42,040 nucleotides of DNA from Eubacteriales bacterium (GTDB taxonomy: Bacteria; Bacillota; Clostridia; Christensenellales; MB2-83): assembly GCA_018385275.1 (NCBI GenBank), contig JAHAZM010000059.1, positions 1 through 42,040 on the forward strand. Reading direction: 5' to 3'. The position numbers and the translations under genes were made by a program. Below the pieces are notes generated by a model that had not been told where the DNA came from, ran no database searches, and saw only the letters and a program-made list of their open reading frames with translations. Shown in pieces: positions 38,083 to 42,040 of the stretch. Every line of letters begins with the position of its first letter. Position 1 is the stretch's first letter.

Positions 38083-38114
38083 TTGCCAATTTCAACTCGC
38101 TGTGCTATTATAAT
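38083..38114 (+). promoter_or_regulatory. Promoter of tRNA-Ala
   Basis: TTGCCA (38083-38088) with either TATTAT (38106-38111, 17-bp spacer) or the perfect TATAAT (38109-38114, 20-bp spacer). The tRNA begins at 38122, eight to eleven bases later. Confidence 0.7.
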
Positions 38115-38121
38115 GCGGTAC

Positions 38122-38197
38122 GGGGGTGTGGCTCAGTTGGTAGAGCGCTACGTTCGCATCGTAGAGGCCAGGGGTTCGAATCCCCTCATCTCCACCA
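38122..38197 (+). tRNA. tRNA-Ala, anticodon CGC
   Basis: A 76-base cloverleaf with encoded CCA. Acceptor 38122-38128 pairs 38187-38193; D stem GCTC/GAGC; anticodon stem CTACG/CGTAG with loop TTCGCAT, anticodon CGC reading codon GCG; 5-base variable loop; T stem AGGGG/CCCCT with TTCGAAT. The third acceptor pair is G-U, the main alanine identity element, which confirms the assignment. Its last 23 bases and two following A residues are duplicated at 38348-38372. Confidence 0.97.
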
Positions 38198-38199
38198 AA
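38175..38199 (+). repeat. Direct repeat, tRNA-Ala 3' end (att-like copy 1)
   Basis: 25 bases running from the T loop TTCGAAT through CCA and AA are repeated exactly at 38348-38372. Duplicated tRNA 3' ends mark integration sites of mobile elements. Confidence 0.9.
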
Positions 38200-38200
38200 G

Positions 38201-38358
38201 CGGCAAGAAAGCGGGCAACAGCCCCCTTTTTTGCTGCTCTCATGCTGTCGGAGGATTCGGACAGCGGCGGACCGGACCGCGGACTTTCGGAGGATCTCTG
38301 ATCCGGAGAATGTCTGCGACCAAGCGACGGTCACGCCGTCGCGCGAATTCGAATCCCC
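38201..38358 (+). repeat. Structured repeat, copy 1 (158 bp)
   Basis: It shares a 77-base identical core (38253-38329) with copy 2 (39332-39408) and a diverged but pairing 5' part. Predicted stems: 38203-38216 with 38221-38234; GCTGTC with GACAGC (38244-38249/38260-38265); CGCGGAC with GTCTGCG (38278-38284/38312-38318) enclosing GGATC/GATCC; and GCGACGG with CCGTCGC (38324-38330/38336-38342). It ends in GAATTCGAATCCCC, which merges into the duplicated T arm. No credible protein frame was found in it. Confidence 0.85.
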
Positions 38359-38372
38359 TCATCTCCACCAAA
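38348..38372 (+). repeat. Direct repeat, tRNA-Ala 3' end (att-like copy 2)
   Basis: Exact second copy of 38175-38199, lying 173 bases downstream. The hairpin terminator at 38370-38421 starts right after it, as expected if this was once the end of the tRNA gene before the insertion. Confidence 0.9.
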
Positions 38373-38421
38373 ACCGTTGCGGTATTTGATACAATGATCG
38401 AGTGCGCAACGGTTTTTATTT
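38370..38421 (+). terminator. Hairpin terminator after the duplicated tRNA end
   Basis: AAAACCGTTGC (38370-38380) pairs perfectly with GCAACGGTTTT (38406-38416) over a 25-base loop, followed by TATTTT. It probably ended the original tRNA-Ala transcript. Confidence 0.75.
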
Positions 38422-38456
38422 TACGGAATAATTGAAATATCTTAGGAGGGGTAATA

Positions 38457-38987
38457 ATGAACAACCCACAACTGATAGAAATATTACGGGAAAGATTTAT
38501 CAAAAATGCAGCGTTACATTCGGGCATAGATTTTGAAACGATTATCGGCAGACTTACGCCCAAAGTTCTTGAATCTTTAAAATATATGGAAGAATCGGGC
38601 GGAGAACCGGATATTATTGCCTACGATAAATCAGAAGACAAATATATTTTCTTCGACACTTCAAAAGAATCGCCGATCGGCAGACGTAGTTATTGTTACG
38701 ACGATGAAGCGCTGAATTCAAGAAAAGCAAACAAGTCTTTTTCTTCGGCAATGAAAGAAGCTGTCGATCATTGCGTTGAAATATTAAGTGAAGAGGACTA
38801 TTTCTTTCTGCAGTCGCTCGGCGATTTCGACTTAAAATCGTCCAGTTGGCTTTATACACCCGCTGAAATAAGAAACAGGGGCGGCGCCATTTTCGGCGAC
38901 AAACACTTCGGAAGAACCTTTATTTATCATAACGGCGCCGAATCTTATTATTCAAACAGAGGCTTTCGAGTAAAACTGAGGGTTTGA
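38457..38987 (+). CDS. DUF4256 family protein
   Basis: 176 residues matching DUF4256 along its length: LIEILRERFIKNAALHSGIDF, MEESGGEPDIIAYDKSEDKYIFFDTSKESPIGRRSYCYD, ALNSRKANKSFSSA, and the C-terminal SSWLYTPAEIRNRGGAIFGDKHFG with YHNGAESYYSNRGFR. The function of this family is unknown; members are cytosolic and scattered among Firmicutes and other bacteria. A strong TTAGGAGGGG site precedes the ATG. The gene is markedly richer in A+T than its neighbours and lies between the two copies of the structured repeat, so it looks like later-acquired cargo. A terminator follows at 39052-39091. Confidence 0.92.
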   Translation: MNNPQLIEILRERFIKNAALHSGIDFETIIGRLTPKVLESLKYMEESGGEPDIIAYDKSEDKYIFFDTSKESPIGRRSYCYDDEALNSRKANKSFSSAMKEAVDHCVEILSEEDYFFLQSLGDFDLKSSSWLYTPAEIRNRGGAIFGDKHFGRTFIYHNGAESYYSNRGFRVKLRV

Positions 38988-39051
38988 TTCAATTATTTGC
39001 ACCCGTTGCACCCGAAAGGCGCATTGTATCAATCATCAGGTGCAGATACAC

Positions 39052-39091
39052 GTCGTCGCGGACTATGTATTGTTCGCGACGACTTTTCTTT
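39052..39091 (+). terminator. Terminator of the DUF4256 gene
   Basis: GTCGTCGCG (39052-39060) pairs CGCGACGAC (39075-39083) and is followed by TTTTCTTTTT. Confidence 0.85.
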
Positions 39092-39280
39092 TTGAAAAGT
39101 CATCTCTCACTCACGCCGTCGCTCCTCCTTTCCGCAAAAAGTCACGCTCGGCTCGCCTGCTCGGTTGTAAACGCCCTCGCGCCGGCTTACTGTCGCTACC
39201 AACTTTTTGCGGTTTTCCGAGGGTTCGAAACCCTCCGTCTAAAACGCCAATCCATCTTTTTCGTACCCAATAGACATAGC
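39092..39280. other. Non-coding stretch with inverted repeat and T-arm-like relic
   Basis: No credible gene. It holds an 11-bp inverted repeat, CCGCAAAAAGT (39132-39142) and ACTTTTTGCGG (39202-39212), about 60 bases apart, and just beyond it GAGGG-TTCGAAA-CCCTC (39219-39235), which has the exact form of a tRNA T arm with no other tRNA parts nearby. It leads directly into copy 2 of the structured repeat. Confidence 0.6.
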
Positions 39281-39437
39281 GACAAGAAAGAGGGCAGCGG
39301 CCCGCTTTCTTGTTGCTCTCAAGCTATCGTGGGATTCGGACAGCGGCGGACCGGACCGCGGACTTTCGGAGGATCTCTGATCCGGAGAATGTCTGCGACC
39401 AAGCGACGAGCCCGCCGTCGCGAGAATTCGAATCCCC
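39281..39437 (+). repeat. Structured repeat, copy 2 (157 bp)
   Basis: Same orientation and hairpin order as copy 1. The first stem pairs 39282-39295 with 39300-39313; relative to copy 1 the closing pair G-C has become A-T and a G-U has become G-C, while an internal mismatch is kept. The last stem GCGACG/CGTCGC (39403-39408/39416-39421) keeps its arms with a different loop. It also ends in GAATTCGAATCCCC. Confidence 0.85.
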
Positions 39438-39515: not shown

Positions 39516-40928
39516 TCAGTTGTGCTTTTTGCGGACGATGACCGCGCCGGCCACAACGGCCGCGACGGCAAAGCCGATCAGCGAGATCGCACCGGACGGC
39601 GGGTTGTCATTGCCGCCCTGCTGGGGTTCGGGCGTCGGGGTCGGCGCGGCGGCCGGCTCGCCGGGTTCGGCGGCCAGGATGCCCACGTCGTCGATCACGA
39701 GCTCGGCATCCGCGACGGTTTCAGCCGCGGCCGGGGAGACCCAGACTAGAAGTTGCGAGACGGCGAAATCATAGTTGCCGTCGGTGCGCGCGATGGCGTA
39801 GTAGCCTTCGAAGCCGGCCGGGATCACCATGCCGGGGCTGTTTTCGTTCTCACCGACGAGTTCGCCATCCATATTATACAGATAGCTGTGGCCCTGCGCA
39901 TACAGCGAGTGATCGACCGCTTCGGGCGCGATCACATGGTTGATCTGCGCGGGGGCGTTGTTGGTGCGGACATAGAACGCCAGCGCAAACGGCTGCTCGC
40001 CGCCGTTGAGCTCTTTGCCGTTAAAGCCGTTGGTCGCGATCTTGATGATGGAGTTCGAGTGCGAGGTGTAAAGAACGGCTCTGTCGGTATCTTTGACCAG
40101 GACCTCACCGTTGCCCTCGCCGGCGTTGGTGTAATTGGACGTGAGGGAGGCGTCCGTCACGGTGTCAAAGGAGTCGCCGAGGATGAAGTTGAGGTTGGCC
40201 GGAGCGGTATGGACGGACAGCTCCGCGACCGAGCCTTCCACGAGGGCGATTTCACCGAAATAGACCTTGCCGGAGCCGGTCCAGACGCTGCTGCCGCGGT
40301 CAACGTCGCTCAGATCGATGGAGTCGGCGCTGTTGTTCGGGTTGACAAGCGGAGCGGCGTCGTTCTTGTCACGACTGGCCTGCGCGCCGCCCTGGAACGT
40401 GAAGTGGGTCAGAGAAGCATACACATAGCCGTCGAAGTTGGCCGGGAGCTTCACGCCCGCGTAAGTCATGCCGGTGGCGACGATGGCGCCTTCCTTGTCA
40501 ACGGCCCAGTAACGGTCGATCATCTGCAGACCGCCGGTTTCGTTGATCGTCAGCGCGGCATCGATCGCCTGCTCGGTCTTCGTGCGGATGCGGAGCATGT
40601 CGTAACCGACGACGTTGCCCTTGGCCGTGGGATCCTCCGAGTAGGAGTGACGGAAGTTGAAGTTCTGGTTGTCCAGCTCGACCACGAAGAAACGTTCGCC
40701 GTCGACCTCAACGTTGCTCAAATCAGCCGCGACGTTGTCCGTCCATGCCTGAGAGACGCCCTTCACGATGGGCGTCATGCAGAAGTAGTCTCCGATTTCG
40801 CTATCGGGCTGGATGGCCTTGAGGACCTTGACGTCGTCCTCGACCACCGTCGTCAACGCACCGGCGACGGCCGCAAAACCAATGCACAAACTCAGTAAAG
40901 CGGCAACCAATGCCAATACCTTTTTCAT
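39516..40928 (-). CDS. Cell-surface protein D with signal peptide and C-terminal anchor
   Basis: 470 residues. Signal peptide (about 1-24, cleavage near VAGA-L), then a long beta-rich region (about 30-420) with two similar halves, each opening with a strand run and containing FDGYVYASL / FEGYYAIAR-type motifs, so it may be two related carbohydrate-binding-like domains. A short Pro/Thr/Glu/Gln linker (PTPTPEPQQGG) precedes NPPSGAISLIGFAVAAVVAGAVIVRKKHN-type C-terminus: a hydrophobic helix with a basic tail. NPPSG is only loosely like a sortase motif. Family not recognised. Its last 20-25 codons are almost identical to those of the next gene. Ribosome site AAAGGAG; promoter at 40959-40988. Confidence 0.82.
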   Translation of the reverse strand: MKKVLALVAALLSLCIGFAAVAGALTTVVEDDVKVLKAIQPDSEIGDYFCMTPIVKGVSQAWTDNVAADLSNVEVDGERFFVVELDNQNFNFRHSYSEDPTAKGNVVGYDMLRIRTKTEQAIDAALTINETGGLQMIDRYWAVDKEGAIVATGMTYAGVKLPANFDGYVYASLTHFTFQGGAQASRDKNDAAPLVNPNNSADSIDLSDVDRGSSVWTGSGKVYFGEIALVEGSVAELSVHTAPANLNFILGDSFDTVTDASLTSNYTNAGEGNGEVLVKDTDRAVLYTSHSNSIIKIATNGFNGKELNGGEQPFALAFYVRTNNAPAQINHVIAPEAVDHSLYAQGHSYLYNMDGELVGENENSPGMVIPAGFEGYYAIARTDGNYDFAVSQLLVWVSPAAAETVADAELVIDDVGILAAEPGEPAAAPTPTPEPQQGGNDNPPSGAISLIGFAVAAVVAGAVIVRKKHN

Positions 40929-41207: not shown

Positions 41208-42040
41208 TCAGTTGTGCTTTTTGCGGACGATGACCGCGCCGGCCACAACGGCCGCTACGGCAAAGCCGATCAGCGAGATCGCGCCGTTCGACGGGTTGTC
41301 GTTGCCGCCCTGATCGCCGCCCTGATCGCCGCCCTGATCGCCGCCCTGGTCGCCGCCCTGCTGGGGTTCGGGAGTCGGGGTGGGTTCAGGCTCGTTCTGC
41401 GCCACGGTGGGTTCAGCGGTGAAGTAACCGAAGTTGTCCATGTAGATCTCCGCGCCTTCTTCAGCGTTGAGCCAGCCGATCACGCTGCCGAGATCGAAGC
41501 CAAGACCAAGATCACCGTTGCCGGGGATATAGACGTAGCCTTCGAAGCCGGCCGGGATCAGGTTGTTCTCTCCGGCGAACTCAACTTCGTTGCCGTCCAG
41601 GTCGAACAGCTTCCAGCCGTCCTTCATCAGGTTCTGTCCTTCGGGAGCCATGATCTGCCAGATGGCGACGTCATAGTCATCGCCGAGACGGACGTAGAAG
41701 CCCCACGCAGGAGCGTTGGGATCCATCGCCGCCATCGTCTGAGGCTGACCCATGTTATCGAACTTGAAGATCGCGTAGTTGGTCTCGTTGAACTCGAAAT
41801 GATACTCTTTGTTGTTGGCGCCGTTCTCCTCAAGGGCCAGCGTGATGTCGGGCTCGCTCGTGTAGGGGAAGGTGACGTTGCTCAGATCGTTGAGGCTGTT
41901 CAGACCGCTGAGGACGACGAAGTTCATATGATCGCCGGGCTTGTTGGGGATCAGCTCCTGAACGCCGCCGTTGACCAGAGCCAGTTCGCCGAAGTAAACC
42001 GCGCCGGTGCCGCTCCAGACCTGGTTGCCGCGTCTGACAG
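41208..42040 (-). CDS. Cell-surface protein E, N-terminus beyond the right edge
   Basis: Only the C-terminal 276 codons or so are present. The frame stays open upstream of the Met at 41927 to the edge; those upstream codons read VWSGTGAVYFGELALVNGG, matching VWTGSGKVYFGEIALVEGS of protein D, so the two are paralogues and the Met is internal. The visible part has a beta-rich domain with FEGYVYIPG, then a linker with GGDQ units repeated four times, then NPSNGAISLIGF and the same hydrophobic helix and RKKHN tail as protein D. A surface-anchored, possibly glycan-binding protein. Confidence 0.82.
   Translation of the reverse strand, partial: VRRGNQVWSGTGAVYFGELALVNGGVQELIPNKPGDHMNFVVLSGLNSLNDLSNVTFPYTSEPDITLALEENGANNKEYHFEFNETNYAIFKFDNMGQPQTMAAMDPNAPAWGFYVRLGDDYDVAIWQIMAPEGQNLMKDGWKLFDLDGNEVEFAGENNLIPAGFEGYVYIPGNGDLGLGFDLGSVIGWLNAEEGAEIYMDNFGYFTAEPTVAQNEPEPTPTPEPQQGGDQGGDQGGDQGGDQGGNDNPSNGAISLIGFAVAAVVAGAVIVRKKHN
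41305..41352. repeat. 12-bp tandem repeat encoding GGDQ
   Basis: Four 12-base units (three identical CCGCCCTGATCG and one with a single change) inside the linker of surface protein E. Being in frame, copy-number changes would alter linker length by four residues without breaking the gene. Confidence 0.9.

Follow-up and report, generated by a model that had tools for sequence, protein, structure and literature searches.

We wanted to understand what two copies of a multi-hairpin repeat, lying close to each other behind a tRNA gene, represent in the genome of a bacterium of the Christensenellales, and whether their pairing is a matter of RNA or of DNA. The window, meaning the whole stretch of DNA analysed, is 42,040 nucleotides long.

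The repeat copies carry the tail of the adjoining tRNA gene

A sequence-only reading had singled out the two copies for a shared 77-base core, a common order of stems and paired base changes. When aligned, the copies (38196-38358 and 39275-39437) give 163 gap-free columns with 90% identity, including a stretch of 77 bases without any difference (columns 58-134), and a chance origin of the repeat is excluded (E ~2e-59). Each copy is predicted to fold at ~-79.5 kcal/mol (z ~-5). The base-level description was borne out: between the copies one G-C of the first stem (13+4 bp) is exchanged for A-T and one G-T for G-C, with an internal mismatch retained in both (C/C vs A/G), and in the last stem (38324-38342 and 39403-39421) the arms are constant and the loop is changed. 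Both copies end in AATTCGAATCCCC, which had been called T-loop-like; this terminus is present in both, and its actual origin is a copy of the 3' end of the adjoining tRNA. The tail of tRNA-Ala(CGC), TTCGAATCCCCTCATCTCCACCAAA, forms a direct repeat at 38175 and 38348, 173 bp apart, and in copy 2 only TTCGAATCCCC remains of it. The proposed relation to a tRNA holds.

What had been read as the first stem is an intrinsic terminator belonging to tRNA-Ala(CGC), an A-tract, hairpin and T-tract immediately after the gene, and the element proper is ~100 bp long. A unit has the order T (tRNA tail), h (terminator), T' (the tail in reverse complement), a structured core containing the hairpins P2 and P3, and T again. 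The parts found in the window are as follows.

38122-38197 (+): tRNA-Ala(CGC) (ARAGORN; Rfam RF00005, 70 bits)
38174-38197 (+): T, tail of tRNA-Ala(CGC), GTTCGAATCCCCTCATCTCCACCA, the sequence copied into the units
38199-38238 (+): h1, intrinsic terminator hairpin 3' of the tRNA and first stem of copy 1 (fold, sequence)
38250-38262 (+): T' of unit 1, GGAGGATTCGGAC, complementary in reverse to part of the tRNA tail (alignment and structure, covariance model match)
38278-38318 (+): P2 hairpin of unit 1, a local variant of the family hairpin GGTAGTGAATG..CAGAGCC (fold; R1 match 38250-38357, 88 bits)
38324-38342 (+): P3 hairpin of unit 1, GCGACGG-TCACG-CCGTCGC (fold, structure alignment)
38348-38370 (+): T copy of unit 1, the second tRNA-Ala tail, TTCGAATCCCCTCATCTCCACCA (direct repeat D8)
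38372-38419 (+): second terminator-like hairpin, after the copied tail, AACCGTTGCG..CGCAACGGTTTTTATTTT (sequence)
38457-38987 (+): 176-aa ORF between both units, DUF4256 (PF14066, E 9e-67)
39049-39235 (+): type B unit, a distinct tRNA-flanking repeat with terminus GAGGGTTCGAAACCC (blastn)
39278-39317 (+): h2, terminator hairpin of copy 2, with compensatory changes relative to h1
39332-39341 (+): T' of unit 2, GGATTCGGAC (alignment, covariance model match)
39357-39397 (+): P2 hairpin of unit 2, same sequence as in unit 1 (fold, alignment)
39403-39421 (+): P3 region of unit 2, arms as in unit 1, loop altered (fold, alignment)
39427-39437 (+): truncated T copy of unit 2, TTCGAATCCCC, the remaining tail being absent

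Other features of the window were noted beside the repeats. An 80-aa ORF (38092-38334, minus strand, ..GIRTPGLYDANVALYQLSHTP..) overlaps the tRNA and the repeat on the opposite strand, and may be of the spurious kind that is annotated as a hypothetical protein. Farther on, two paralogous predicted secreted proteins (39516-40928 and 41208-41927, minus strand) share C-terminal anchors that are nearly the same (GAISLIGFAVAAVVAGAVIVRKKHN), and their terminators are alike as well (95% identity over 117 bp).

Units recur at other tRNA genes of the source genome and in Clostridia

In the source assembly (1.64 Mb in 80 contigs, 87% complete), the 3' half of the window repeat was found again 3' of tRNA-Ala(GGC), as two 166-bp units, and 3' of tRNA-Leu(CAA). 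In every case a tail copy comes after it, taken from the tRNA at that locus. A degraded unit lies 3' of tRNA-Tyr, and the other source-genome tRNAs checked showed no tail repeat within 600 nt. Five elements of this genome align as three paired regions, P1, P2 and P3, with both sides changed in nine pairs. P1 is T', the tail reverse complement, paired with the tail copy T, and in the Leu unit the T' arm is altered together with the tail (GGGGGCGAA / TTCGACCCCC).

The type B repeat is also present in this genome 3' of tRNA-Ser(GCT) and tRNA-Arg(CCG) (L043 1707-1879; L050 1-135). It has its own terminator, is unrelated to the window units and showed no T'; it resembles a large unit found 3' of tRNA-Asn in genus g53. 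Separately, on source contig C19 (L005 1157-1290), the 5' half of the tRNA is partly duplicated 5' of tRNA-Leu(CAA), and a P2 hairpin in inverted orientation breaks up this duplicate; a similar case was seen in another genome (L186).

A DNA-level search of 60 relatives returned matches in the source genome only, so a covariance model was needed, the first of which was built from the five source-genome elements. Within the order it matched 9 of 396 genomes. The matches were mostly located 42-57 nt behind tRNAs, and nearly all new ones about 45-55 nt behind a tRNA or tmRNA gene, or one unit farther (hosts: tRNA-Val, Lys, Ala, Glu, Arg, Trp, Ser and Tyr, and tmRNA). The motif AGTGAATGNNNNNCCNGNGGNNNNNCAGAGCC was detected in at least 120 stretches of GTDB genomes, Clostridia MAGs or uncultured bacteria among the matches listed, and in 16 stretches of IMG/VR; exact patterns of the source-genome 3' half gave zero matches in IMG/VR and GTDB. 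All 12 genomes of genus g53 contain the family, with 6-21 matches each. In total, covariance models and motif scan yielded more than 200 relatives in Clostridia, at ~30 tRNA/tmRNA types as well as at other intergenic sites. The family was not found in 397 other genomes sampled from the phylum with stricter filters, blastn against phages and plasmids gave no match, and no Rfam family matched the repeats in the window or the clostridial loci tested. No description of the clostridial family was found in the literature searched, a search that covered sources other than subscription journals. Apparently, the repeats form a large, undescribed family of short foldable DNA elements of gut and rumen Clostridia, placed right after tRNA genes and bearing the end of the tRNA in forward and in reverse orientation.

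The arms of a unit match the tRNA that it follows

Of 205 distinct elements, 100 have a tRNA or tmRNA gene on the same strand no more than 350 nt upstream. The first units begin 42-57 nt past the CCA, which leaves space for a terminator only. T was best matched by its own tRNA in 88 of these 100 elements (mean score 17.6 vs 6.5 with other tails) and T' in 71 of them (12.2 vs 7.0). At L061, L081 and L227, T' spans almost the entire tail, so that T-h-T' and T'-core-T are each a long inverted repeat.

A tail copy spanning the T-loop to the CCA is like an att site, and the direct repeats might accordingly be read as attL and attR left behind after loss of a phage or an ICE; tRNA-bearing contigs do carry integrases, and one prophage is present in a tmRNA tail. 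However, neither T' nor a conserved structured core is expected from att decay, and the core is shared by ~30 tRNA/tmRNA types and by intergenic palindromes. Because this core also covaries, as described below, we give such remnants very little credence.

About 80 other elements have no tRNA nearby, despite flanking sequence being present. Many of them lie within intergenic palindromes, in the arrangement GGCTCCCCTTGAGG[GTAGCGAAGC..core..GCAGCGAGA]CAGCTGTC, and some, including one of the source genome, inside the 5' part of tRNA-Leu on the opposite strand. For empty class-2 palindromes, the regular expression was too strict and gave a single match, so the proposed insertion of the core into palindromes is read from rows L209, L188 and L152.

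Being short, palindromic, intergenic and present in many copies, the elements recall REP/BIME/REPIN sequences and could be REP/REPIN-like elements moved by a Y1 (RAYT/IS200) transposase. REPs are described as palindromes with a GT(A/G)G head (PMC2817692), and a GTAG-like tag stands 5' of the hairpin in many clostridial copies. This tag is not a fixed GTAG head but varies (GGAG, GAAG), the clostridial arms are tRNA-derived, unlike anything in REPs, and the Y1 transposase domain (PF01797) is absent from the carriers G000, G060, G213, G383 and G135, whose genomes are 87% (G000) and 90-97% (the others) complete. We find this origin very improbable.

The core covaries with hardly any G-U pairs

Both further copies and covariation, on which the sequence-only reading had made its proposal depend, were found in the wider set. 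In a set of 29 elements, 95.8% of the cells are paired and double changes occur in 19 of 30 pairs. As controls, 0 of 500 shuffles scored as high, and slid structures paired in 29-49%.

When an RNA fold is under selection, G-U pairs are expected in excess over A-C. In P2 of 181 distinct elements, with pairs one to six counted in the lower stem and all eight counted in the apical stem, there are 2328 Watson-Crick pairs, 20 G-U and 22 A-C, which puts G-U at 0.85%. At the same loci, tRNA stems have 263 G-U among 3303 pairs (8%), a comparison that applies to G-U and not to A-C, ARAGORN listing standard pairs only. The inner pairs of A4/A5 gave 13 G-U and 14 A-C, and those of a smaller set, A3, leaned the opposite way (16 G-U, 5 A-C). 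Equal and very low numbers of G-U and A-C agree with pairing in DNA hairpins or with copying of the arms through template switching, a process reported to create and maintain hairpins with compensatory changes (PMC8794818). For the core, the evidence argues strongly, if not finally, against selection on an RNA fold and in favour of DNA-level pairing or template-switch copying. The selection on structure that had been suggested for the window copies, on RNA or single-stranded DNA, was thus upheld in part. Covariation is strong, the changes in the first stem turned out to belong to a terminator, and of the two options single-stranded DNA, or else arm copying, is favoured over RNA since G-U is rare.

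The unpaired AGTGAA/GA, a motif partly fixed by the search pattern itself in the genome_contigs loci, and the linker GACC(A/G)AG are conserved although the arms vary. A purely mutational process is therefore insufficient, and something would have to recognise or spread the core. We dropped the idea that the internal loop is a kink-turn, as one extra A has no partner.

These motifs, together with strong covariation, could also point to a functional RNA. Terminator read-through would then yield a T'-core-T transcript that is stable and has a tRNA-like 3' end, comparable to the RtT RNA of E. coli and acting on tRNA processing or physiology, and selection on its fold would explain the covariation. 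Such an RNA would agree with the strand shared with the tRNA, with the fixed distance, with the excess of G-U over A-C in A3 and with the annotation of RtT itself as a small RNA. On the other hand, P2 has G-U pairs about as seldom as A-C and ~10x less often than the tRNA stems of the same loci, the elements sit 3' of an intrinsic terminator, and orthologous tRNAs freely exchange core families. We consider a functional RNA unlikely.

Units, terminators and cores are shuffled between sister species

Among the loci listed for four g53 genomes, h-T'-core-T follows most tRNAs that stand alone or close a cluster, and at least three core families are present. Behind tRNA-Pro(CGG), G080 has h2 with core C and G213 has h1 with core A; G060 has two units, one with h1 and one with h2, and a fused C-A core in both. 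Likewise, in the Ala(CGC) arrays of different species, the number of units, h and the core vary and T is constant. These differences indicate that the parts shuffle with T and T' as boundaries. No empty site was found in an otherwise identical close strain, and no insertion event was seen.

Core family C (GAAGCCGCGTTAAGAAAAAGCCGCAGTGCGGCTTTTTTAGCGGCAAGGGC) has the same T'/T frame as family A and lies outside the covariance models (L252, L253, L295-L298). At L250 (G383, 3' of tRNA-Pro CGG), a T' remnant is followed by unrelated sequence with no repeat unit, as if an integrated element had replaced the array. On a viral contig (L203 11840-12180), two complete units come after a copy of the tmRNA tail; this is apparently a prophage integrated between the tmRNA and its repeat array, which suggests that ordinary integration uses these tails too.

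Gain of units behind a fixed site could also reflect tRNA-anchored cassettes that are integron-like without being an integron. The tRNA/tmRNA tails would be fixed insertion sites comparable to attI, the folded single-stranded T'-core-T would be comparable to attC, and a tyrosine recombinase acting in trans would add units made of h and a site and rarely of a gene, such as the DUF4256 ORF of the window. The part order is indeed that of attI followed by cargo-attC units, with stem arms around a variable structured insert (a resemblance only). The paired arms free of G-U, the conserved asymmetric internal loop, the variable hairpins, the additional units of some species, the prophage in the tmRNA tail directly preceding two units and the phage-type integrases of the genome are consistent with this. 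Integron cassettes normally carry a gene, but here cargo is nearly nil: first-unit spacing fits a terminator, and the DUF4256 ORF between two units of the window is the only case seen. Moreover, no integron integrase or other recombinase is linked to the arrays, the four PF00589 occurrences of the source genome all lying off the window contig, and core family A also occurs in palindromes away from tRNAs. Finally, the clostridial arms match the adjoining tRNA rather than a fixed consensus, and since T must match the tRNA, transfer of units between different tRNAs would be impossible by this route. Insertion by a recombinase in trans is in our view quite improbable, and we rate cassettes of this kind just as low.

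An RtT-type array, proposed to be kept in register by DNA copying

To our knowledge, this tRNA-tail layout has so far been known from the RtT repeats of E. coli. An RtT RNA would be a small, stable RNA set free from the primary transcript of its tRNA. The E. coli tyrT/tyrV repeats consist of T, a spacer, GGGGAAGGAT (T'), a multi-hairpin core and ATCCTTCCCCCACCACCA (T), the RtT structure in Rfam closes on exactly the T'/T stem, and RtT is present in 4711 of 5426 E. coli genomes. RtT RNA (RF00391) corresponds to the 178-bp repeats behind tyrT/tyrV (Egan and Landy 1978; Bosl and Kersten 1991, both as cited in PMC8144298). The clostridial units resemble it in being tandem, tail-ending repeats 3' of a tRNA, with a tail reverse complement, a branched multi-hairpin core, a tail copy with CCA and an outer T'/T stem. 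They differ in using ~30 tRNA/tmRNA types, when the E. coli K-12 copies are seen at tyrT/tyrV, in having a strong terminator as spacer, and in containing several unrelated core families. The RF00391 covariance model, which gave 133-137 bits in E. coli as a positive control, had no match in the window at the gathering threshold and none at E up to 1 in L059, L066, L203 and L209. With the layout of RtT but no sequence homology detected, the clostridial units are filed outside RF00391, as an RtT-type variant.

Our preferred account, to which we give a probability of roughly 45%, is that the copies are units of a tRNA-anchored, modular, non-coding RtT-type array whose arms are kept matching the tRNA by DNA copying. 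Observed are the layout, the many tRNA/tmRNA hosts, the agreement of T' and T with the local tRNA, and the way in which units and cores turn over between sister species. What we infer is that pairing acts on DNA, and that arms are copied and cores spread in the following way. T, T' and T would be arms of neighbouring hairpins, and during replication, hairpin-mediated template switching or gene conversion would copy one arm onto another. With the tail fixed by selection within the tRNA, T' and T would track it, and the core hairpins would be kept perfect by such copying, with no G-U intermediates. Units may then be gained, lost and shuffled when tail copies recombine. The hairpin-core families (A, C, D and others) would spread as small non-autonomous sequences; family A is found inside intergenic palindromes as well, and no mobilising enzyme was identified for the units. 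Since a complete tail and terminator come back with each unit, the tRNA gene would stay functional and the array would be tolerated.

Until now, RtT has been regarded as a small RNA that belongs to a single tRNA locus in E. coli. An RtT-type layout at ~30 tRNA/tmRNA types, with unrelated cores and G-U-avoiding pairing, suggests that tRNA ends host a general, self-correcting type of repeat. It also suggests that strong covariation can arise at the DNA level, which calls for caution when structured RNAs are called from covariation alone. Finally, the old puzzle of RtT, a repeat described in 1978, becomes testable through comparative genomics.
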